From positions 1 to 64,000 of the forward strand of contig JAJRZQ010000012.1 in NCBI GenBank assembly GCA_024275165.1: a stretch of 64,000 nt of DNA, given 5' to 3'. Position 1 is the first letter of the stretch; each line of letters starts with the position of its first letter. This stretch comes from a bacterium. Its GTDB lineage: Bacteria; SAR324; XYD2-FULL-50-16. The notes beneath the pieces were generated by a model. It ran no database searches. It was not told where the DNA came from and saw only the letters and a list, made by a program, of their open reading frames with translations. The translations under genes and the position numbers were made by a program. This document shows positions 5,014 to 32,134 of the stretch, piece by piece.

Positions 5014-5784
5014 TTGCAAAGAAAGCGCAACCTGTGGCAAACTATCTGTACTTCGGTCTCTGCGCTTGCAGAAAAGCCCAACGCTTTACCCCATGAGGCC
5101 CCCATTAAACCGCTCTTGCCCCTATATTTGATCTTGATTTTTTGCGCGGGGCTGGGAACGAGTTCGGCCTGGGCCGGCCAGCCGCTCTTGTTTAGTCATG
5201 CCAAACATACCCAAGAGTTGGGCCTCGGTTGCGCTGTTTGTCATCTATATTTTACCAGCCAAACCAATGCGGGAGTTCCCTCCAATCCAACCTGCCAAGC
5301 CTGCCATTTGATCCCGCTCGGCTCCAGTGAGGAAGAAAAAAAGCTGGTGCGGATGCTGCAAACCGGCCTCCCCATCCAGTGGGAACGGGTCACCCGTTTA
5401 CCCCGTCATGTGCGTTATTCCCACTCCCGTCATGTTGGTTATGCCCGTATCCCTTGTGTTACTTGTCATGGAGAGATTGAAAAAAGCTCACAACCCATTA
5501 CCCGTCCCTTGGTTTTTTTGGACATGAATTTTTGTATCCGCTGCCACCGCCAGCCGCAACTGGCCTTGACGCAAACCGCTTTTGCGGGGTTGGAGCAAGC
5601 CAATTTTAAACAGGACAAACTGGAGCGTTTACAAAGCTATATCGCCATTCCTTTTCGTCAAAACCAAGAATTGGCCCAACTGTTGAAAGATGAAAATTTC
5701 AGTTTGGCAGAACAAAAGCAGGTCACCACCCAGATGACACCGGTTCCGTCCATTTCCACTGATTGCATGAACTGCCACCGTTAA
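5014..5784 (+). CDS. Periplasmic pentahaem cytochrome c (ActA/QrcA-like)
   Basis: 256 aa with an N-terminal hydrophobic segment (LPLYLILIFCAG...) ending in AWA, so exported or membrane-anchored. Five CxxCH haem sites are visible: CAVCH, CQACH, CVTCH, CIRCH and a C-terminal CMNCH. Phrases such as RLPRHVRYSHSRHV before the third site are typical of the multihaem cytochromes paired with NrfD complexes (QrcA of sulfate reducers, ActA of alternative complex III). QrcA has six haems and ActA five. The start is TTG at 5014; the preceding ATG at 5001 hits a stop at once. First gene of a tightly packed six-gene operon, probably the exit point for electrons. Confidence 0.85.
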   Translation: MQRKRNLWQTICTSVSALAEKPNALPHEAPIKPLLPLYLILIFCAGLGTSSAWAGQPLLFSHAKHTQELGLGCAVCHLYFTSQTNAGVPSNPTCQACHLIPLGSSEEEKKLVRMLQTGLPIQWERVTRLPRHVRYSHSRHVGYARIPCVTCHGEIEKSSQPITRPLVFLDMNFCIRCHRQPQLALTQTAFAGLEQANFKQDKLERLQSYIAIPFRQNQELAQLLKDENFSLAEQKQVTTQMTPVPSISTDCMNCHR

Positions 5785-5786
5785 CC

Positions 5787-7991
5787 ATGAAACTAAGCCG
5801 CCGCAATTTTATGCTCACTACCGCCACCGGCCTGGGGGCTTGGGGGCTCCAGGCCTGCCGGGGCCGCGGTGGGGCGGAGGCGATCAAGGCGGTAGAACAG
5901 TGGAAAAACCAACTCAAACAAACCCGCTTTGCCCTTTGCGATGGCTGCGCTGCCCGCTGTGGCTTAAACTGCGAATTCGTGGACGATCGTTTAGTGGGGA
6001 TTCGTGGCGCGGCCTTGCACCCGGTGAATCAAGGGGCGATCTGCCCCAAAGGGTTGGACCTAAAACACCAGCGACTGGACGAAGATCGCCTTAGGGTGCC
6101 CCTGCGGCGGAAGGGGCCCAGGGGTAGCGGGGAATTTGAGGAGGTCTCTTGGGAGTCCGCCCTGACCCAAGTCACTTTGGCGATTCAGTCTTCGCCTCAG
6201 GCGACCTCCTTGTTGGGGGGCCAATACCGGGGCAGTACCGATGACTTGTTCCAGACTTTTTTACAAGCCCTGGGCAGCCCCCATTACCTCCGCCTGCGGT
6301 GTCTTCAGCCGGAACTTCCAGGGGAGCATCTGCGCCGCATGCAGGGGCTGGATTCCCCGGTGGCCTATGATTTAGCGGGGGCCAAGGTGGTGCTTAGCTT
6401 TGGTTGCAATCTTTTTGAAGGGTGGCAATCCCCTCTTTATCAAGCGCGGGTACTCGCAGGGGATACTGATTTAATCCAGATCGACCCCCGCTACAGTCTG
6501 ACCGCTTCCAAGGCGCGCGTTTGGGCTGCCCCGCATCCGGGTACGGATGGCATTCTAGCCTTGGGCCTAGCCAACATCCTGCTTCGCGAAGGGTTATACG
6601 ACGCGGGTTTTGCCCACCGCTGGATCAAGGGATTCGAGGCGGATCAGACTGACCGAGGTCCAGTTCAAAAGGGGTTTAAAAACTTAGTGTTGCAGGGTTA
6701 CGGGCCGGAGCGGGTGGAAGCCCTGACCGGGATACCGGCCCGCCGCCTCTACCAGATCGCTCATCTCTTTGGCGGGGGCGGCCCCTCCGTGGCTCTGGCG
6801 GAGCGGGGGCCGGGCTATGGGCAGCGTGACGCTTATTCTAAGATGGCTATCCATAGTCTCAACGCCTTGGTGGGCTCTCCAGGTCGAGTTGGCGGCATGA
6901 CCCTGCAAGCCAGGCCCCCCCTGACCCCGCTAGGCCCGGCTTTGCGCGCCGACAACGACCCCTTGTCGGCTTTGGAAGCAGGAGAAATCAAAACGCTGCT
7001 GCTGTATCGCAGCAACCCCCTTTATAGCTCCGCGGCAAGGACTCGTTGGGCTGCCGCTTTGGATAAACTTGATTTGCTGGTGAGTTTTGCCACCCAAATG
7101 GATGAAACGAGCCGTCAGGCGGATTTAATCTTGCCCGACTTACATAGTCTAGAACGCTGGCAGGATGATGTGACCCTGCATCAAGCGGGGGTGAGCCTCT
7201 ATTCCCTCTCTTCCCCGGTCGTGGAGCCTTGGGGCCGGGGAAGAGCGAGCGAGGAGGTGGTACTGGAATTGGCACGCCGCCTCAACCTGCATAGCTTGGC
7301 TTTTCCCGATTATCCCAGCCTGTTGCGTCTTCGCGCCGAGGGATTGTTTCAAGCCCGCCGGGGCCGGATCCCTCAGGCAAGGGAAGATTCGGAGATACAA
7401 CAACTCTTGATGAAGCAAGGCTATTGGCAGGCTCAATATGATGATTTTGCCTCTTTTTGGACAGCCTTGCAGGCCCAAGGGGTTTGGCTGGACGAGCAAG
7501 CGAGCTACCGAGGCCGGGCGCACCTGATGCCTCAAGGGAATTTTGATTTGCGGCCCCTTTTGCAAGAGGCGAAGCAACCCTGGGTGGCGCCTCTGCATCG
7601 GGGTGGGCTCTTGCTGGTTAGCTTTAAACCCTTTGCCCTCAGCGGGGGGCGCAACGCCAATCAATCCAGGTTGTTGGAATCCCTTGCCGGCCCCTTTGGC
7701 ACGGCTTGGGAGGGGCCGATCCTATTGAATCCAACTACGGCCAAGGCCCGTGATTTGAGGACCGGGGACTTAGCGAGGTTGGTCTCTTCCCGGGGCGAGT
7801 TGGTGGGTCCCGTTAAACTGACCGAGGCGGTGGGGCCCGCTCTGATTTTTCTCCCCTTTGGCTTAGGACATGAGTTTTTCGGCAAGCGGGGCAGCGGGCG
7901 GGGGGTGAACCCCAATCACTTGCTCGCCGACTTTGGCCCCAATCTAGTGGGGCATTCTTATGTAGAACTCTCCAAGGTGGAGGCAGGATGA
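5787..7991 (+). CDS. Tat-exported molybdopterin-oxidoreductase family subunit (QrcB/ActB/PsrA-like)
   Basis: 734 aa from ATG 5787, two bases after the cytochrome stop. The N-terminus has a twin-arginine signal (SRRNFM) followed by a hydrophobic stretch ending LQAC, which could also be a lipobox. The [4Fe-4S] ligands are in CDGCAARCGLNC with a fourth Cys in ICPKG. The CISM fold is clear from the segments NPLYSSAARTRWA, DETSRQADLILP and the C-terminal molybdopterin dinucleotide-binding domain (LLNPTTAKARDLRTGD). Whether it binds molybdenum is open: QrcB and ActB are described as structural relatives without catalytic Mo, while PsrA is active. The neighbours favour the quinone-linked Qrc/ACIII type. 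Confidence 0.85.
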   Translation: MKLSRRNFMLTTATGLGAWGLQACRGRGGAEAIKAVEQWKNQLKQTRFALCDGCAARCGLNCEFVDDRLVGIRGAALHPVNQGAICPKGLDLKHQRLDEDRLRVPLRRKGPRGSGEFEEVSWESALTQVTLAIQSSPQATSLLGGQYRGSTDDLFQTFLQALGSPHYLRLRCLQPELPGEHLRRMQGLDSPVAYDLAGAKVVLSFGCNLFEGWQSPLYQARVLAGDTDLIQIDPRYSLTASKARVWAAPHPGTDGILALGLANILLREGLYDAGFAHRWIKGFEADQTDRGPVQKGFKNLVLQGYGPERVEALTGIPARRLYQIAHLFGGGGPSVALAERGPGYGQRDAYSKMAIHSLNALVGSPGRVGGMTLQARPPLTPLGPALRADNDPLSALEAGEIKTLLLYRSNPLYSSAARTRWAAALDKLDLLVSFATQMDETSRQADLILPDLHSLERWQDDVTLHQAGVSLYSLSSPVVEPWGRGRASEEVVLELARRLNLHSLAFPDYPSLLRLRAEGLFQARRGRIPQAREDSEIQQLLMKQGYWQAQYDDFASFWTALQAQGVWLDEQASYRGRAHLMPQGNFDLRPLLQEAKQPWVAPLHRGGLLLVSFKPFALSGGRNANQSRLLESLAGPFGTAWEGPILLNPTTAKARDLRTGDLARLVSSRGELVGPVKLTEAVGPALIFLPFGLGHEFFGKRGSGRGVNPNHLLADFGPNLVGHSYVELSKVEAG

Positions 7992-8686
7992 GCCGCTGGG
8001 GGATGGTCATTGACTTAGAAAAGTGCAACGGCTGTGAGGCCTGTGCCGCCGCCTGCCAGGCAGAATGCAACCAGCCCCCCGTGGGGGAGTCGGAAGCCCG
8101 CATGGGCCGAAAAATCAGTTGGTTAAAAATAAGTGAGGAGCTAACCGGAAAATTCCCCGACCTGCATCGAAGGATGATTCCCCAACCCTGCATGCAATGT
8201 GACGACCCGCCTTGCGTACGGGTTTGCCCCGTCCATGCCACCTACTTGGGGGAGGGGGGAATCGTCGCGCAGATTTATCAGCGTTGCATTGGCTGCCGTT
8301 TTTGCATGGCCGCTTGCCCTTATACGGTGAAATATTTTAATTGGTATAACTACGCCGGAGGTTTACCCGCGGCAGAACAAGAGGCCATGAACCCCGAGGT
8401 CTCTCCTCGTCCACGGGGAGTGGTGGAAAAATGCACTTTTTGCCATCATCGACTGCTATTGGCAAAGGACCAGGCTAGATTGCAGGGGAATGATCCGGCC
8501 AGAGCGGTGTATCATCCCGCCTGCGAAGAGGCTTGCCCGGCGAAGGCGATCTATTTTGGAGACTTGGACGACTCCACCACGGAGGTTGCCCGATTGGCGC
8601 AAAGTCACCGGGCCTCCCGTTTAATGGAGGATCTGGGAACCAATCCGAAGGTTTATTATCTAGCCAGAAAGGAGAACCATGGATAG
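7988..8686 (+). CDS. Four-cluster ferredoxin-like subunit (PsrB/QrcC/NrfC-like)
   Basis: 232 aa with four ferredoxin-type cysteine groups arranged as in the DMSO-reductase B-subunit family: CNGCEACAAAC, CMQCDDPPCVRVC, CIGCRFCMAAC and CTFCHH with a later CEEAC. It has no export signal of its own and would travel with the Tat-exported partner. The ATG overlaps the preceding gene by four bases and its end overlaps the NrfD gene. It should wire electrons between the molybdopterin-family subunit and the NrfD quinone site. All sixteen Cys appear present, unlike the counterpart at 30554-31483. Confidence 0.9.
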   Translation: MSRWGMVIDLEKCNGCEACAAACQAECNQPPVGESEARMGRKISWLKISEELTGKFPDLHRRMIPQPCMQCDDPPCVRVCPVHATYLGEGGIVAQIYQRCIGCRFCMAACPYTVKYFNWYNYAGGLPAAEQEAMNPEVSPRPRGVVEKCTFCHHRLLLAKDQARLQGNDPARAVYHPACEEACPAKAIYFGDLDDSTTEVARLAQSHRASRLMEDLGTNPKVYYLARKENHG

Positions 8687-10028
8687 GGATTTTCGTCACG
8701 AAGCGGACGCGGTGCTCATGCGCCCTATTTTTGAACGGCCCAAATACTTCTACCCTCTTTTGGGGTTTCTCCTAAGCGTAATCGCTTGGGCAGCTTATTG
8801 TTATTATCTCCAATTCAATCTCGGCTTGGGGGTAACGGGCATGAACCAGCCGGTTAGTTGGGGGTTTTATGTGACCAATTTTGTTTTTTTTATCGGTATC
8901 AGTCATGCGGGAACCCTGATCTCCGCGATTCTTCGCATGACCCAAGCGGAATGGCGACGCCCCATTACCCGCATTGCCGAGATGATCACCGTTGCGGTGC
9001 TGGGCATTGGGGGGATGAATGTTCTTTTGGATCTGGGGCGGATCGACCGGGTTGCCAATGTTTTTATGTATGGCCGCTATCAGTCGCCCCTGCTCTGGGA
9101 TGCCACCAGCATCACCGCTTATATGACCGCCAGCGCGTTGTACCTCTTCATCCCCTTGATTCCCGATATCGCCATCTTGCGCCAACATGCCACGGGGTGG
9201 CGCGGGGGCTTGTACGGGGTGCTTTCTTTGGGGTGGCGGGGAACAGAGCGGCAACAAAAAATCTTAAATCGTTGTATCGGCTTCATGGCCGTGCTGGTGA
9301 TTCCCATTGCCATTTCCGTGCATACCGTGGTGGCCTTTGTTTTTTCCATGACCCTTCAGCCCATGTGGCACTCCACTATTTTTGGGCCCTATTTTGTGGC
9401 AGGGGCGATTTTCAGCGGCTTGGCGGGGTTGATCATCGTCATGGCGGTGCTGCGGTGGGTTTTTCACCTCCAGGATTATCTGCAACCGATTCATTTCAAT
9501 TATTTGGGGCTCTTGCTGCTGGTGATGAGCCTGTTTTGGTTTTATTTTACCTGCGCGGAATACTTAACCGCCTATTTCGGCAACGAGCCCGGCGAAATGC
9601 GGGTATTCTGGTCTAAAATGACGGGAGAGTACGCCGGCTATTTCTGGTTGATGGTGATGTGCAATTTTGTGCTTCCTTTGCCTCTGTTGGTTTGGAGACG
9701 ATTTCGCCAGGTGACCGGCACGGTAATCGCCAGCCTGTTGATCAGCGTCGGCATGTGGCTGGAGCGCTATATCATCATCGTACCCAGCATGGCCAACCCT
9801 CGCGGAGACCTTTTGGAAAAGGGGCATTACACCGCTTCTTATGTGGAATGGAGTCTCATGGCCGGTTGCTTTGCCCTTTTTGTTCTCATTTACCTCTTGT
9901 TCAGCCGCCTCTTCCCTTTAGTTTCGATTTGGGAGGCCCGTGAAGGGCGGGAGAAAACCTTAGAGATCGTTGCCGCAAGGGTAGAGCGCTATAAATTGGG
10001 TGAGGGGCGTTTAAAGGAGGAGCAATGA
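8679..10028 (+). CDS. NrfD/PsrC-family integral membrane quinone subunit
   Basis: 449 aa, very hydrophobic, with about ten membrane spans. It matches the NrfD family in the opening segment GMNQPVSWGFYVTNFVFFIG and in the SVHTVVAFVF block. The length is close to ActC/ActF and longer than the eight-span PsrC proteins. It overlaps the ferredoxin gene start-to-stop, so a 1:1 complex is likely. The family binds and oxidises or reduces quinone at the membrane surface; in some members it is proposed to move protons. The C-terminal tail after the last helix is polar (YKLGEGRLKEEQ). Confidence 0.9.
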   Translation: MDRDFRHEADAVLMRPIFERPKYFYPLLGFLLSVIAWAAYCYYLQFNLGLGVTGMNQPVSWGFYVTNFVFFIGISHAGTLISAILRMTQAEWRRPITRIAEMITVAVLGIGGMNVLLDLGRIDRVANVFMYGRYQSPLLWDATSITAYMTASALYLFIPLIPDIAILRQHATGWRGGLYGVLSLGWRGTERQQKILNRCIGFMAVLVIPIAISVHTVVAFVFSMTLQPMWHSTIFGPYFVAGAIFSGLAGLIIVMAVLRWVFHLQDYLQPIHFNYLGLLLLVMSLFWFYFTCAEYLTAYFGNEPGEMRVFWSKMTGEYAGYFWLMVMCNFVLPLPLLVWRRFRQVTGTVIASLLISVGMWLERYIIIVPSMANPRGDLLEKGHYTASYVEWSLMAGCFALFVLIYLLFSRLFPLVSIWEAREGREKTLEIVAARVERYKLGEGRLKEEQ

Positions 10029-10258
10029 ACGAGCGGCAAATTCAGTTTTTTCAATATTTATTTGTCCTAAGCTTTACCCTTTTCGACCTCGCGGTATTGA
10101 GTTGGATCGGGCGTTTGATCTACATTGCACTGCAACTGAAAGATACGGTCAACGGGAGTTTAGGAATCGCCATTGTGGCGGGTAGCCTGTTTTTGGTTTT
10201 GCTGGGGGTGTTCCACTATCTTTTTTGGGGTTTGAAACGAGCAAAGGAGCAAGTTTGA
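10025..10258 (+). CDS. Small two-span membrane protein of the NrfD complex
   Basis: 77 aa, not recognised as any named family. It has two hydrophobic segments (roughly residues 10-35 and 43-68) and a short basic tail (LKRAKEQV). Its ATG overlaps the NrfD stop as ATGA, and the next gene starts inside its own stop codon, so it is embedded in the operon on both sides. ACIII operons carry small membrane subunits, but I cannot match this one to ActD or another by motif. Probably an accessory subunit stabilising the membrane domain or the cytochrome. Confidence 0.75.
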   Translation: MNERQIQFFQYLFVLSFTLFDLAVLSWIGRLIYIALQLKDTVNGSLGIAIVAGSLFLVLLGVFHYLFWGLKRAKEQV

Positions 10259-11376
10259 AGGCCCTCTGCTTTTTTTTCATTCTCATTTGGCCTTGGGCCT
10301 TGTTGGCCCAAGGCTGGCCGGAACTCCCCCAAAACCCCTTGGAAGGCCAAGCCTTGTTGCGAGAAAAACATTGCCACCAATGTCATGCTATTTTAGGCCA
10401 GGGGGGCAGTGGCGGCCCTGATTTGGGGAGGTTGCAGTACAATCGGAGCTTTTTTTCCATGATGGCGAGGCTCTGGAATCATTTCCCAAGGATGCAGGCG
10501 AGTTATCGAGCCAAGGGCGTCAACTGGCCGCGCTTGAGTCCTAGGGAGATGAACAAGTTGATTGTCTATCTTTACGCGCTCAATTATTTTGATCAAGAGT
10601 CCAACCCTGGCCGAGGGGAGTTGTTGTTTTCGGAAAAAGCCTGCAACCGTTGTCACCGTCTGGGTGGAAAAGGGGGAAGGTTGGGCCCTGCGCTGGATCG
10701 CTATCAAAATGATCTGACCCCCGCTTATCTTGTTGCCGATTTGTGGAACCGTTCCCCTGCCAAGTCCCGCGCCTTTGTAAAGATGCGGATCCAACCGCCT
10801 CAGTTGGGGGGCAATGATGTAACTGATCTTTTAGCCTATATTCAGGCCAAGGGCTTGAGCGAGCCGGCTCCCTTGCGGAAGGCCGGCCTTCCGAATCCAA
10901 AAATGGGGAAGGTGATTTTTCAAAAAAAATGCGCAAATTGCCACCAAAGGGGCCAGAGGGGGATGAATTTGGCCTTCAGCGAGCTGAAGGGGACTCGGTC
11001 TTCGATTCTAGGCCGCCTGTGGAACCTTCCTCAGCATCGACCAGGAAAAAGAGCCGCTTACCCCAAACTGCAAGCAGAAGAAATAGACCCTTTGGCGATG
11101 TATCTTTATTTTCTTTCCTTTGCCGATCAACCGGGCAGGGCCGAGTTGGGCCAACGCCTTGTCATTGAAAAGGGATGCGTTCAGTGCCACCGCTTTCAAG
11201 CCCGACCTCCAGGGAAATTGCCGCAAAACCCCTTGGAATTGCTTTCTCGCATCTGGAATCACGCGCCCCGCATGGCCCGTGCCATGAAGCGGCTCAACCG
11301 CCCATGGCCCCGCTTTGAGCCGGAACAAATGCGTGATCTGCTCGCCTATTTGGGCGAGGTCCAAGCCAGCCGCTAG
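10255..11376 (+). CDS. Four-domain c-type cytochrome with four CxxCH sites
   Basis: 373 aa from TTG 10255. This start is chosen because AAAGGAG sits about 5 bases upstream and the codon overlaps the previous stop (TTTGA); an upstream TTG at 10225 would lie within the previous gene. The N-terminus is a signal peptide (ALCFFFILIWPWALLAQ). The mature protein is four consecutive class I cytochrome-like units, each with one site: CHQCH, CNRCH, CANCH, CVQCH. A recurring pattern of LWN then a proline-rich turn and DLLAYL separates the haem sites, showing internal duplication. It is probably the electron acceptor or donor for the complex. Confidence 0.85.
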   Translation: MKALCFFFILIWPWALLAQGWPELPQNPLEGQALLREKHCHQCHAILGQGGSGGPDLGRLQYNRSFFSMMARLWNHFPRMQASYRAKGVNWPRLSPREMNKLIVYLYALNYFDQESNPGRGELLFSEKACNRCHRLGGKGGRLGPALDRYQNDLTPAYLVADLWNRSPAKSRAFVKMRIQPPQLGGNDVTDLLAYIQAKGLSEPAPLRKAGLPNPKMGKVIFQKKCANCHQRGQRGMNLAFSELKGTRSSILGRLWNLPQHRPGKRAAYPKLQAEEIDPLAMYLYFLSFADQPGRAELGQRLVIEKGCVQCHRFQARPPGKLPQNPLELLSRIWNHAPRMARAMKRLNRPWPRFEPEQMRDLLAYLGEVQASR

Positions 11377-14305: not shown

Positions 14306-14631
14306 TGGAAGACCTATTGGCGATTTTAATCGGTCTGCTCTATGCTGCCGGGGTTTACCAGATGTTGCGTCGAAGCATCGTGAAGCTCATTTTAGGTTTA
14401 TTGTTTCTTTCCCACGCCACCAATCTTTTGCTTTTTTATTCCGGCGGCCTGCGGGGGCTCGCCCCGCTCGTAACCGAGGCCGGCAGCGTGATGGACCCTC
14501 TGCCCCAGGCCTTTATCTTAACCGCTATTGTGATCAATTTTGGAATCATCGCTTTTTTTGTTATTCTTCTTTTTCGCGCCTACCAGATCAACCGGGCAGA
14601 AGACTTAGACGAACTCCACAGGACAGAGTGA
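14305..14631 (+). CDS. mrpC: Mrp antiporter subunit C (NuoK-like)
   Basis: 108 aa with three membrane helices, homologous to NuoK. Recognisable segments are LGLLFLSHATNLLLFYSGG and DPLPQAFILTAIVINFGI. I start it at ATG 14305, which overlaps the mrpB stop and has GGGAGGAG just upstream; an in-frame ATG at 14293 lies before that ribosome-binding site. It ends in a TGATG overlap with mrpD. Confidence 0.92.
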   Translation: MEDLLAILIGLLYAAGVYQMLRRSIVKLILGLLFLSHATNLLLFYSGGLRGLAPLVTEAGSVMDPLPQAFILTAIVINFGIIAFFVILLFRAYQINRAEDLDELHRTE

Positions 14632-15815
14632 TGAAAGAAGGAATTTTATTTCCCTTGATCTTACCTCTTTTGATGGCGACTCTTTCTCTCTTGCCTCGCC
14701 GTTGGCGATTTGATCGGGAGTTGATGGCTCTTTTGGGAAATTTGGCCCACCTGGTTTTTTCCCTGCTGTTGTTTTTTCAAATTCGCGCTCATGGGGTGCA
14801 AACGCTGCAAATAGGGGCTTGGCCCGCCCCTTTTGGGATTACTTTGGTTGCCGACCTTTTGAGCGCCAGCATGCTGATTATCACCGGGTTGGTGGGGTTT
14901 TTAATTACCCTGTACAGTTTGGGAAGCCTGGACTCTCTACGCCAGTCCTTTGGTTATTTTCCCCTCTTGCATGTGGTGGTTTTTGGTTGTTCCGGTGTTT
15001 TTGTAGCCGGGGATTTGTTCAATCTTTTTGTCTGGTTCGAGGTCATTTTAATTGCTTCTTTCGTTTTGTTGACTTTGGGCGGGGAACGGGAGCAGATTAT
15101 CGCCGGAGTCAAATATGTGACCCTCAACGGGGTGGCCTCCACCTTTTTTTTGACCGGGATTGGGCTGCTTTACCTACAGATGGGGACTTTAAACCTGGCG
15201 GACCTTTTTGGTAAATTGGCTCAAGTTCCCGCTGGGGGGGTGTTATCACTTACATTGTTGTTTTTATTAATTACTTTTTTAATTAAGGCCGGTTCCTTTC
15301 CCTTTTTCTTCTGGTTGCCGGCCTCCTACCCTACCCCACCAATTGCCGTTTCCGCCTTGTTTGCCGCGCTCTTGACCAAGGTGGGGGTCTATGTCTTGCT
15401 GCGCTTCTTTAGCTTGGTTTTGCTCCCCTCGGGGGTGGTCTTTTCGGGGTTGCTCTCTTGGGCGGCGGGGTTGACCATGGTCTTAGGGGTTTTGGGGGCC
15501 TGGTCGCAGATGGATATTCGGCGTATCCTTTCTTTTCATATTATCAGCCAAATCGGTTATATGTTGATGGGGATTAGTTTTTTGAGTCCCTTGGCCCTCA
15601 GCGGAGCGATTTATTTTATGTTTCATAATATTACGGCAAAGACCAATCTTTTTTTGCTGGGCGGGGTCATTGCCCTCTTGGGGGGGAGCTATCGGCTGGA
15701 ACAATTGGGTGGGCTCTTTCGCTCCTTTGGGCTTTTGGGAACCCTGTTTCTTTTCGCGGCCTTGTCCTTAGCGGGAATACCGCCCTTGGCGGGTTTTTTG
15801 GTAAGTTCACCTTGA
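14631..15815 (+). CDS. mrpD: Mrp antiporter subunit D, 5' part of a frameshifted gene
   Basis: 394 aa as read, against about 490 for normal MrpD. It is NuoN/NuoM-like with the conserved proton-channel segments (LFNLFVWFEVILIASFVLL, KAGSFPFFFWLPASYPTPP). The frame ends abruptly in LAGFLVSSP. Intact MrpD proteins continue AGF-F-GKF-x-LIRAGL, and that sequence exists in the +1 register immediately after a T6 run at 15794-15799: adding one T restores FGKFTLIRAGL. So the gene has lost one T, or the run is a slippage site, or it is a sequencing error. The remaining 113 codons are listed next. Confidence 0.9.
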   Translation: MKEGILFPLILPLLMATLSLLPRRWRFDRELMALLGNLAHLVFSLLLFFQIRAHGVQTLQIGAWPAPFGITLVADLLSASMLIITGLVGFLITLYSLGSLDSLRQSFGYFPLLHVVVFGCSGVFVAGDLFNLFVWFEVILIASFVLLTLGGEREQIIAGVKYVTLNGVASTFFLTGIGLLYLQMGTLNLADLFGKLAQVPAGGVLSLTLLFLLITFLIKAGSFPFFFWLPASYPTPPIAVSALFAALLTKVGVYVLLRFFSLVLLPSGVVFSGLLSWAAGLTMVLGVLGAWSQMDIRRILSFHIISQIGYMLMGISFLSPLALSGAIYFMFHNITAKTNLFLLGGVIALLGGSYRLEQLGGLFRSFGLLGTLFLFAALSLAGIPPLAGFLVSSP

Positions 15816-16138
15816 TTCGCGCCGGTTTGGGGCAGGGGGAGTGGCTTTTGGTGGGGGTCTCGATTGCGGTGAGTCTCTTTACCCTTCTTTCCATGCTGAA
15901 GATTTGGCATTACGCTTTTCTGCAAGCGCATCCCAATCCAAAGCGAGATTTACAGCAGGTCTGGATGGATTTAGGTCAAAAACGCATTTATCTTTTGTTG
16001 CCCATTCTCTGCTTGGCAGGGTTGAACCTCTCCATGGGGCTGTTTGCCGAATTTTTCTTAAATTTGACCGGGCAATTTGCCGAGGAATTGATCCATCCCA
16101 CCGCCTATATTGAAGCGGTACAACGAGGAGGTCTATGA
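15800..16138 (+). pseudogene. mrpD: mrpD, 3' part in the shifted frame
   Basis: It encodes GKFTLIRAGLGQGEWLLV and the last two membrane helices of MrpD, ending just before mrpE (4-base overlap). There is no plausible independent start with a ribosome-binding site; the TTG at 15812 lacks one. The sequence is well conserved up to its end, which argues for a very recent frameshift, for recoding at the T-run, or for an artefact, and against old decay. Full restored length would be about 502 aa. Confidence 0.85.
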
Positions 16139-17158: not shown

Positions 17159-17590
17159 ATGAAATATTCGCTTCCCAAAGTAACCCTTGCCTTGAGCGGG
17201 TTTTTACTCTTGCTCAGTCCCTCTTTATTTGCCGCTAGCCCAGCGCCAAAGGGGGTTGAGCTTTATCTGATTTCCCCCCAGGAAGGCGCTCAGCTTAAAA
17301 GTCCGGTGCGGGTTCGTTTTGGTTTAAAAGGCATGGGAGTTGCCCCGGCGGGGGTAAGGAAAAAAAATACGGGGCACCATCACCTTTTGGTTGATGTCCA
17401 AGGCCTACCTGCCTTAAACCAAGCCATTGCGAAGGACGCGCGTCACCTGCACTTTGGGGGGGGCCAGACCGAGGTCAGCCTGAAGTTAAAACCGGGCCAG
17501 CATAGTCTGCGATTGATTCTGGGCGATCATGCTCACATTCCCCATAACCCGCCTGTTATCTCTCAAGAAGTCAATTTTACGGTGCGCTAG
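17159..17590 (+). CDS. Exported DUF4399 protein
   Basis: 143 aa with a signal peptide ending LFAAS. It matches the DUF4399 family, which has the His-rich core seen here as TGHHHLLVD, HFGGGQTE and LGDHAHIPHNPP. These histidines suggest metal binding in the periplasm, but no function is established. It has its own ribosome-binding site (TTGGAG, 5 bases before ATG). It sits after the Mrp operon and converges on pstB, and may be co-transcribed with mrp. Confidence 0.82.
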   Translation: MKYSLPKVTLALSGFLLLLSPSLFAASPAPKGVELYLISPQEGAQLKSPVRVRFGLKGMGVAPAGVRKKNTGHHHLLVDVQGLPALNQAIAKDARHLHFGGGQTEVSLKLKPGQHSLRLILGDHAHIPHNPPVISQEVNFTVR

Positions 17591-29320: not shown

Positions 29321-30550
29321 TCAGCCATGGCTAGAGGTATTCGTTCCCAATTCATGAGCCTTTAAGGGGATCAAGGTCTTGAGCATCAAGGTGAAAATAA
29401 GCCCCCCAATCGCGAGAATCCCGAGGGAAACCTGTACCTCCACTTGGGTGGGCGCGTATTCAAAGATTTCCCCAATGGGAGTGGGGATGTATCCGGGGAT
29501 GACAAAACCGGGCCCCTTTTCGATCCAAACCCCAACAACGGCCATGGCACAGGCGAGGAACAGGATTTTATGGTTTTCCCGTGTTTTTTTCACCATCAAC
29601 AAGATGGCGGCGCCGAGATTGAGCAGAATCCCCGTCCAGATAATCGGCACGAGGTTGTGGTACCCCTTGAGCCCTAAAAAGAGATATTGCGCCGAGGCGG
29701 AATGGGCTCCGGCATTGTATAGCTCCGTAAAGAGTTCCGCGACCAGCATCACTAAATTGATTTGCATGGCAATGGAGACGATGATTGCCAGCAGGTTGAT
29801 GATGTTCCAACCGATATGGAAAATCTTCACCTTGTGCAGCAAGGCAAAGGTCATGATGATGAAGGCGGGGCCGGAGGTAAAGGCGGAGGCCAAAAAACGC
29901 GGCGCGCTCAAGGCGCTGTGCCAAAAGGGTCTGGCCGTATTGGAAACGAACAAAAAAGCGGTGATGGTATGAATGGAGATGGCCCAAAACATACTCAACA
30001 GCGCGACCCCGTTGATGATCCGCTGATCCGCCTTACTGTCGTAATAGTCATGGTAGAGGATGTATCCTGGTAAGCAGAGGTTGATGAGCAGGTAGCCTGT
30101 TAAGACGATGACATCCCAGGTCAAGAGGCTTGAAGGCCAGTTGAACTTCCCTAAAAAGGGGGTAAAGTGCCAAATTCGGTCGGGGCGGCCCATGTCCACG
30201 CTAACAAATAAAATCGCCATCACGCAGGCGGCAACCGCTAAGGCCTCCCCTAAAATAACCACTCGCTTGGCTTCTTTGTGATGAAAGATGTAAGCGGGGA
30301 CGACCAGCATCACCGCGGCGGCGGCCACCCCAACCAGGTAGGTGAAATTGGCGACATAAAGCCCCCAAGAAACCTGATCGGAAAGGCCGGTGGTCACCAT
30401 GCCCTTTCTCCATTGCTCGATGTAGGTGAATAGCCCCATGGAGGCTAAGAACACCAAAAAGAATATCCATCCCCAAAAGATTTTTCCTCCCTTAAAAGCG
30501 TGTTCAGCGCAAAAGAGGGTGAACTGACCGATATTTTTTATTGTTTTCAT
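29321..30550 (-). CDS. NrfD/HybB-family membrane quinone subunit (second complex)
   Basis: 409 aa with about ten membrane helices. NrfD/HybB pattern: SDQVSWGLYVANFTYLVG near the N-terminus and MFWAISIHTITAFLF mid-protein. It follows the ferredoxin-like gene by three bases. HybB-like members pass electrons between a periplasmic partner and the quinone pool. Sequence and length differ from the 8679 paralogue, so this is a distinct complex and not a recent duplicate. Confidence 0.9.
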   Translation of the reverse strand: MKTIKNIGQFTLFCAEHAFKGGKIFWGWIFFLVFLASMGLFTYIEQWRKGMVTTGLSDQVSWGLYVANFTYLVGVAAAAVMLVVPAYIFHHKEAKRVVILGEALAVAACVMAILFVSVDMGRPDRIWHFTPFLGKFNWPSSLLTWDVIVLTGYLLINLCLPGYILYHDYYDSKADQRIINGVALLSMFWAISIHTITAFLFVSNTARPFWHSALSAPRFLASAFTSGPAFIIMTFALLHKVKIFHIGWNIINLLAIIVSIAMQINLVMLVAELFTELYNAGAHSASAQYLFLGLKGYHNLVPIIWTGILLNLGAAILLMVKKTRENHKILFLACAMAVVGVWIEKGPGFVIPGYIPTPIGEIFEYAPTQVEVQVSLGILAIGGLIFTLMLKTLIPLKAHELGTNTSSHG

Positions 30551-30553
30551 CCT

Positions 30554-31483
30554 TTAGTCCGAAAAGTACCAAAATTTAGGTTGGGTGTTGAGGTCTTCTT
30601 TGAGACGAAAAACGGTTTTGTTTTCCAAAACCCAGCGAATCTCTGATTTAGGGTCTAAGAGATTACCGAAGACGCGTGCCCCTGTTGGGCAGGCCGCTTG
30701 GCAGGCGGGCATTTCGCCCTTGCGGGTTCGCTGCAAGCAAAAGGTGCATTTTTCCATGACCCCTTTTTCCCTAGGGCGGTTGCTGAGGTAGTGGGTATCT
30801 GGGTTGATTTTGTCTTTGGGCAGGTTGGGGTTGCGCCAGTTGAAGCGTCTTGCCCAGTAGGGGCAGGCGTTCATGCACATGCGGCAACCGATACACCAGT
30901 TGTAATCGACGACTACAATTCCATCGGGCTCTTTCCAGGTGGCTTCGACCGGGCAGGTGGCCACACAGGGCGGGTTCTCGCATTGGTGACATTGGATGGG
31001 CAGGTAAAACTTCCCTGGCGCGGGGACTTCTTTTTCCGCGGAATAATAATGGGAGGCTTCTTCTAGGTTGAAGGTTCCCCGATCCAGTTCCAAGACGCGG
31101 ATGTATTCCATGTTGGGGTTTTTGTCTTGGTTGTTGACCTCGGTGCAGGCCTTGACACATTCGCGGTATCCCTTGCAACGGGTGATGTTGAGGGCGTAAC
31201 CAAAGAGGACATGTTCTTTAGGCGGGGTGGTGGCGACCTTGATTTCTTTGTCGTATTGGCTTTTGTAGCGGCGTTCCAGGCGCGCTACCGCTTCTTTCAC
31301 CTCTTCGGGGCTCATTTTGGTGTAATGGCTTTGGAAGTGCTCACCCCATTCTTTTTCAGGGTTGGTAGCCGGGTATCCCGTTGAGTCGCTGGCCAGGGCT
31401 CCCGCCCCGACCGCGGCCCCGAGCCCTAAAATCTTCAGGCTTAGACGCTTTGCCTTATCTTGTATTTGTTTGTTTTTTGTCAT
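30554..31483 (-). CDS. Ferredoxin-like subunit of the second NrfD complex
   Basis: 309 aa. N-terminal hydrophobic, signal-like segment (LSLKILGLGAAVGAGALA) without a clear twin-Arg pair. Cluster-binding sets are CKGYRECVKAC, CHQCENPPCVATC, CIGCRMCMNAC and CTFCLQ with CQAAC. In the first set the second Cys is replaced by Tyr, leaving three Cys. Such GY variants occur in some HybA/NrfC-like families, so one cluster may be [3Fe-4S] or have another ligand. Three bases separate it from each neighbour, indicating one transcript. Confidence 0.9.
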   Translation of the reverse strand: MTKNKQIQDKAKRLSLKILGLGAAVGAGALASDSTGYPATNPEKEWGEHFQSHYTKMSPEEVKEAVARLERRYKSQYDKEIKVATTPPKEHVLFGYALNITRCKGYRECVKACTEVNNQDKNPNMEYIRVLELDRGTFNLEEASHYYSAEKEVPAPGKFYLPIQCHQCENPPCVATCPVEATWKEPDGIVVVDYNWCIGCRMCMNACPYWARRFNWRNPNLPKDKINPDTHYLSNRPREKGVMEKCTFCLQRTRKGEMPACQAACPTGARVFGNLLDPKSEIRWVLENKTVFRLKEDLNTQPKFWYFSD

Positions 31484-31486
31484 GGG

Positions 31487-32134
31487 TTAATGCCTTTGGT
31501 AGTCGTCTAGGTTAGAGGGCCAAAAGGGAGGGTGCTCTTGTATCGGCGGCTTCATGGGGCGCAGTCCCGCGCGCACCGCCGGGGCGCTGCGGGGCTTGCG
31601 GGGCTTGATTTGAGGTACATGGGGGTTATGGCATTCGGTGCAGTTGAGCAGGGTTCGGTTTTCTTCCCAAGAACCGATGCGTTTGCCGTGGGCCCCATAG
31701 ATAAACTCCCTTAAACGGTGTTGGTGACACTGCCCGCAGAGCAAATAAGCTTGATTAAAACCAATGGGTTGGCCCTTTAGGCTGGTCAAGTTGTCCCGCT
31801 CGTAGGTGCTGTGGCAGGTGGTACACCAAAAGCGCCCCTTGCCGTGTACGAGATTGATCTCTTGGTGCATCATCTGTAGGGGGCGAATTTTTGGGTTGGC
31901 CTTGATGATGCCCTGGGTATGGCAGCCCGTACAGGGGTAAGTGAGTAGTTTTTCCGTACGGTCGGGGACGACAAAGGGGGGGGCTTGCTTGATGAGGGAC
32001 AGGGGATCAATATTTTGCGGGGCAGGACTAAAGTCTTCCGGGTTGGAGCGGGTAGAGGGAATATGACTGAGGTCTAGCGCCCCTAGGTTAGGGGGAAGCA
32101 GGAGGAGCAATCCGAGTAAAATCCATTTATGCAT
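31487..32134 (-). CDS. Periplasmic tetrahaem cytochrome c of the second NrfD complex
   Basis: 215 aa with a signal peptide (WILLGLLLLLPPNLGA). Four haem sites: CTGCH, CTTCH, CGQCH and CTECH. The C-terminal 40 residues are proline-rich and lack haems. First gene of the cytochrome-ferredoxin-NrfD trio. The order and haem count match the CbcSTU type of inner-membrane quinone complex described in Geobacter; I infer a similar role, moving electrons between the quinone pool and periplasmic cytochromes. Confidence 0.87.
   Translation of the reverse strand: MHKWILLGLLLLLPPNLGALDLSHIPSTRSNPEDFSPAPQNIDPLSLIKQAPPFVVPDRTEKLLTYPCTGCHTQGIIKANPKIRPLQMMHQEINLVHGKGRFWCTTCHSTYERDNLTSLKGQPIGFNQAYLLCGQCHQHRLREFIYGAHGKRIGSWEENRTLLNCTECHNPHVPQIKPRKPRSAPAVRAGLRPMKPPIQEHPPFWPSNLDDYQRH

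Follow-up and report, generated by a model that had tools for sequence, protein, structure and literature searches.

A six-gene cluster encoding a probable split alternative complex III with a four-haem cytochrome at the ActE position

Six genes at positions 5014 to 11376 of a 64,000-nucleotide stretch of bacterial DNA (the window) encode what is probably a membrane-bound quinone:cytochrome c oxidoreductase of the alternative complex III (ACIII) lineage, a reading to which we give a probability of about 0.7 and for which we use the terms group I or split ACIII. The gene set is no chance arrangement, and dozens of bacteria spread over many phyla have it too. Because the same genome also has a canonical ACIII on another contig (C11), with a fused ActB, an ActD, a one-haem ActE, and an ActF, the six-gene complex would be a second system in this organism.

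All six open reading frames are present in the ORF list of the window and lie on the plus strand. Subunit A (5014..5784, with a TTG start as listed) is a pentahaem c-type cytochrome resembling ActA and QrcA, with five CxxCH motifs and an N-terminal signal or anchor. Subunit B1 (5787..7991, within ORF 5763-7991) is a MopB-family protein with the FS0 motif Cx2Cx3Cx27C, and its likely start at the ATG at 5787 gives it the twin-arginine signal SRRNFM. Subunit B2 (7988..8686) is ferredoxin-like, with all 16 cluster cysteines present and a Cys103 that corresponds to Thr in ActB, and subunit C (8679..10028) is an ActC-type NrfD membrane protein (PF03916, E 1.9e-34) with an altered quinone site (Asp118 and Val221). 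Two smaller products follow: s77 (10025..10258), a protein of 77 amino acids with two hydrophobic segments predicted to be membrane helices, and cyt4 (10225..11376), in which a signal sequence precedes four tandem class-I cytochrome c domains (four CxxCH; PF00034, 7e-25). From the third gene on, each gene begins within the one before it, with overlaps of 4 to about 34 nt, and no ActF, the second NrfD of ACIII, is encoded in the cluster. The tight packing, the split ActB, the single NrfD, and the two added subunits described in a sequence-only reading of this DNA are all borne out.

An Mrp-type antiporter operon begins about 216 nt downstream of the cluster, so that the neighbors in the window are antiporter genes, not multihaem cytochromes; as mnhA was found in the window only among the loci examined, the antiporter was rejected as a conserved partner. 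An MnhD-like gene of this operon lies in two frames (14628-16138; 395 and 108 amino acids, overlapping by 4 nt), which is a frameshift or an assembly error, and a DUF4399 protein follows the operon at 17159-17590. Elsewhere in the window, the minus strand at 29321-32134 carries a second quinone module with no MopB protein; its parts are an NrfD, a ferredoxin-like protein, and a small multihaem cytochrome of the c7/c3 type. On contig C17 of the same genome (about position 175712; L005), a single TAA breaks an NrfD-family gene that lies next to a molybdopterin oxidoreductase.

A scan of named species genomes (84,980 species) with subunit C returned 344 relatives; the 80 best, at 55-71% identity, were used. 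Record titles of these best 80 of 344 name Rokubacteria, Nitrospirae, Ignavibacteria, KSB1, Acidobacteria, Marinimicrobia, Planctomycetes, Deltaproteobacteria, and others, and the nearest named relatives among them are labeled Deltaproteobacteria and Candidatus Lambdaproteobacteria. Counting was limited to the 38 group loci whose flanking DNA was long enough for the whole set. Subunits A, B1, B2, and C occur in all 38, and s77 and cyt4 both accompany them in 26, which places the six-gene set of the window in other genomes as well. Each of the remaining 12 loci has one of these two, six being without a detected s77 and six without cyt4, so not all six subunits can be obligatory.

These incomplete loci, together with the Ignavibacteria, where s77-cyt4 lies upstream of A, would suit a complex proper of A-B1-B2-C with s77 and cyt4 as independent neighbors. 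We regard this as improbable, since the two genes keep their adjacency across many phyla, share overlapping frames in the window, and stand where ActD-like and ActE-like proteins stand in ACIII operons, and since one locus (L057:1039-2730) is a natural fusion in which s77 is joined to the C terminus of subunit C. From this fusion, and from the fact that s77 remains beside cyt4 even in the reordered Ignavibacteria, we infer that s77 belongs to the split ACIII. A structure prediction of the fusion, made from 11 sequences, was poor (mean pLDDT 60), and so it is the fusion itself rather than a model that points to contact between C and s77.

The s77 family, of about 80 amino acids, has no entry in Pfam or NCBIfam, and none was found in viral contigs. 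The idea that s77 is a shortened ActD was dropped, as hhalign gave a probability under 2% for that pairing; the s77 helices have no conserved acidic residue, unlike ActD with its Glu122. In the cyt4 family, 64 of 66 members scoring above 190 bits have four CxxCH motifs, and cyt4 matched no solved structure. Three loci (L058, L059, and L069) have a second four-haem cytochrome nearby. Another (L082) has a further NrfD gene nearby, and the Desulfobacterales genome from which it comes has a true Qrc elsewhere.

Structures of ACIII (ActABCDEF) have been solved from Rhodothermus marinus (6F0K), Roseiflexus (6LOD), and F. johnsoniae (6BTM), and the assignment of subunit C is the firmest link to this lineage. 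By phmmer, subunit C scores 235 bits against 6lod_C and 227 bits against 6f0k_C, both solved ActC chains, with no Qrc or Psr chain among the matches listed. Profile comparison gives 3e-102 against canonical ActC versus 1.3e-14 against QrcD, and the score against the QrcD family is 30.9 bits where the cut-off is 570. In the NrfD tree, group I (with Ib and IIx) forms a clade with a support of 98 beside canonical ActC, and QrcD is far away. Judged by its sequence, the NrfD subunit is ActC, not QrcD.

The residues of the quinol site in R. marinus ActC include His139, Asp169, and Asp253 (PMC5928083). Asp169 is kept as Asp141 in subunit C of the window, as is Trp82 (Trp61), but His139 has become Asp118 and Asp253 has become Val221. 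Replacement of His139 by Asp and of Asp253 by Val or Ile is found in 86/86 group I proteins and also in type II, as against none of the 36 proteins of types III, IV, and V (canonical included). The proton path is far less changed. Each of the 14 cytoplasmic half-channel residues of R. marinus is kept by at least 84 of the 86 group I proteins, with Arg395, Glu394, Tyr270, and Glu326 kept in all of them; the window itself has Gln169 where R. marinus has Asp197. The periplasmic half-channel is likewise kept, except for Tyr323, which is Thr in all 86, and a variable Glu338. In a Nitrospirae MAG (L064:10016-11758), the ActC-type subunit has a C-terminal extension resembling a CBS-domain pair, which could act as a regulator of the complex.

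The soluble subunits tell a more mixed story. The best solved matches of subunit A are ACIII ActA chains (8k9e_A, 2.3e-22; 6f0k_A, 3e-21), and it could still be a QrcA. The sequence-only reading had taken the haem number as fitting ActA, but five CxxCH motifs are also present in QrcA in nine of ten fetched Qrc operons (the tenth locus is truncated), so haem count cannot separate ActA from QrcA and was discarded as a test. Among NCBIfam equivalogs, QrcA is the best for A and QrcC the best for B2, with QrcB second best for B1; all three score below the family cut-offs (75.1 of 180 bits for A, 280.9 of 400 for B2, and 217.8 of 440 for B1).

Among solved structures, B1 comes closest to ArrA (1.8e-48) and PsrA (1.6e-44), its FS0 motif is intact, and Cys180 of the window aligns with the region of ArrA and PsrA that holds the Mo-ligand cysteine, all of which would agree with a catalytic molybdoenzyme of the Psr/Phs/Arr type equipped with extra cytochromes. 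Several observations make such an enzyme very improbable. At the Mo-ligand position, around which gaps are frequent, Cys occurs in only about 15 of 68 B1 members, mainly in a Rokubacteria/NC10/SAR324 subset that includes the window, and neither Qrc nor canonical ActB conserves this position. The MopB-like domain holds no cofactor in ActB or QrcB, the nearest characterized homologues (PMC5928083, PMC13059093), and the membrane subunit is of the ActC and not the PsrC type. B1 of the split ACIII is probably free of molybdenum, though the subset to which the window belongs may have a protein ligand to Mo. The FS0 cysteines are kept in 66 of the 68 members; they were set aside as a hallmark of group I, being present in most ActB and QrcB as well.

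In B2, Cys103 is Cys in 83/83 group I proteins and 11/11 QrcC proteins, Thr in canonical and type III proteins, and Val in type II. The proximal cluster of ActB is a [3Fe-4S] cluster (PMC5928083). As Qrc, which has the cysteine, also shows a [3Fe-4S] EPR signal (PMC6303296), the cysteine count does not settle the cluster type.

In the best trees, B1 groups with QrcB (85/82) and B2 with QrcC (93/97), and in a joined alignment a branch with 100/100 support separates canonical ActB from group I, group II, and Qrc together. AU tests do not reject trees in which Qrc is held with canonical ActB (p of 0.166, 0.161, and 0.219), and a mosaic of ActC with Qrc-like soluble subunits is for this reason likely rather than proven. 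"Hybrid," the word of the sequence-only reading, is a fair description on the sequences: its membrane half holds, as subunit C is of the ActC type and sits beside ActC in the tree, and its Qrc half, visible in the best-tree grouping of B1 and B2, is not forced by the AU tests.

This grouping gives some weight to the main rival reading, an enzyme running in the Qrc direction as a cytochrome c:menaquinone reductase that takes electrons from periplasmic donors and protons from the cytoplasm. We consider it unlikely. It would accord with the best NCBIfam equivalogs and with the alignment of Asp118 and Ser136 of subunit C with QrcD Asp120 and Ser138 (PMC13059093), but a QrcD D120A variant still supported growth (PMC13059093), so the shared aspartate says little about direction. 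QrcD Asp70, which is essential and serves in proton input (PMC13059093), is Asn67 in the window as read from the profile alignment, the ActC half-channels are kept, and all subunits fall under the Qrc cut-offs, C by far. Sequence does not fix the direction of the split ACIII, given the QrcD-like aspartate in the pocket and the company of B1 and B2; quinol oxidation is the direction we prefer.

In the mechanism we propose, the six products would assemble into one complex, and (mena)quinol would bind at the periplasmic side of subunit C. Electrons would travel along the B2 clusters to pentahaem A and on to cyt4, with B1 as a scaffold. The four-haem string of cyt4 would replace the one-haem ActE and could reach periplasmic multihaem cytochromes. 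Packed against C, s77 would probably sit where the two helices of ActD sit, with no ActF present, and the kept half-channels would permit proton translocation of the ActC kind, helping to charge the membrane. The gene neighborhoods suggest a respiration that is regulated and ends on acceptors in the periplasm or outside the cell. Of 35 loci with 5 kb of DNA on either flank, 19 have a nearby ORF with six or more CxxCH motifs (a raw count, without a random-locus baseline); a genome of the same phylum has an MtrC/MtrF-like decahaem protein near the cluster, and NtrC-type regulators adjoin several clusters.

Elements of this complex have been noticed before. A split actB (actAB1B2CDEF, described with ActF) has been reported in iron oxidizers (PMC4643136), a Nitrospirales actABCDE with split actB and no ActF or ActG is on record (PMC12342949), and cluster 4 of MBNT15 SHF-111 combines ActABCD with an ActE-like protein with four haems (PMC9386147). 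Some species' act clusters have only one ActC-like subunit (PMC3543383), a six-gene cluster in KSB1 and Planctomycetes was judged to fit none of the described complexes (PMC10732223), and an NrfD survey, which lists as many ActF as ActC proteins, set no ActF-less group apart (PMC8076601). The suggestion that the complex might be undescribed does not survive these genome papers, in which the split actB, the loss of ActF, and the four-haem ActE-like protein already appear. In the literature found, the complex type has been seen but not defined or characterized: the passages on the MBNT15, Nitrospirales, and iron-oxidizer clusters give no subunit-level definition, and our search found no biochemistry of a split, ActF-less complex. 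Likeness to those three sets of clusters rests on their published descriptions in these passages, not on sequence comparison. The present analysis gives this ACIII variant, noticed before, a sequence definition.

By family scores, different subunits of the complex come out as Qrc, ACIII, or molybdopterin oxidoreductase, and the combination of split B, s77, four-haem cytochrome, and Asp118/Val221 offers a signature for it. With ActC half-channels kept in nature in the company of a changed quinol pocket and neither ActF nor the Glu122 of ActD, the cluster provides a comparison for which parts are needed, and it bears on two questions, proton pumping by ActC-type subunits and the reason for a second NrfD subunit in ACIII. 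Among uncultured bacteria whose respiration relies on multihaem cytochromes, the complex may commonly serve as a quinone exit. More tentatively, and short of an even chance in our estimate, group I may be a separate complex, distinct in function, that links Qrc and ACIII and has a proton-translocating ActC module with a pocket rebuilt around Asp118, s77 in place of ActD and ActF, and a four-haem output for respiration by way of cytochromes in the periplasm or outside the cell; Qrc would then have been derived from it by exchange of ActC for QrcD.

Set against known systems, the complex resembles Psr/Phs/Arr enzymes in the fold and FS0 motif of B1 and in having a ferredoxin subunit, but differs from them in its ActC-type membrane subunit, its added cytochromes, and the lack of a family-wide Mo ligand. 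Like Qrc, it has separate MopB-like and ferredoxin subunits, a pentahaem cytochrome, all 16 ferredoxin cysteines, the Asp and Ser of the pocket, and the best-tree placement of B1 and B2; unlike Qrc, it has ActC in place of QrcD, Asn in place of QrcD Asp70, two extra subunits, and scores below every Qrc cut-off. Among relatives of ACIII, type II (L158-L160) has A-B1-B2-C and a downstream one-haem cytochrome in place of s77 and cyt4, with no ActF; type III has a split B, type IV (L165) has a split B with ActD, ActE, and ActF, and type V has a fused B. As split B is found in types III and IV too, the split is not special to the six-gene complex. From ACIII, the window complex differs in dividing between two genes the MopB-like and ferredoxin parts fused in ActB, in lacking ActF, in an s77 with no detectable homology to ActD (two helices plus terminal domains), in four haems at the ActE position versus one, in the Cys of B2 where ActB has Thr, and in the exchange of ActC His139 and Asp253 for Asp and Val or Ile, with Asp169 kept. 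With ACIII it shares the ActC-type subunit and its half-channel residues, the pentahaem A, the four-cluster ferredoxin domain, a MopB-like domain without a conserved Mo ligand, and a gene order that runs from A through B and C to a small membrane protein and a cytochrome.
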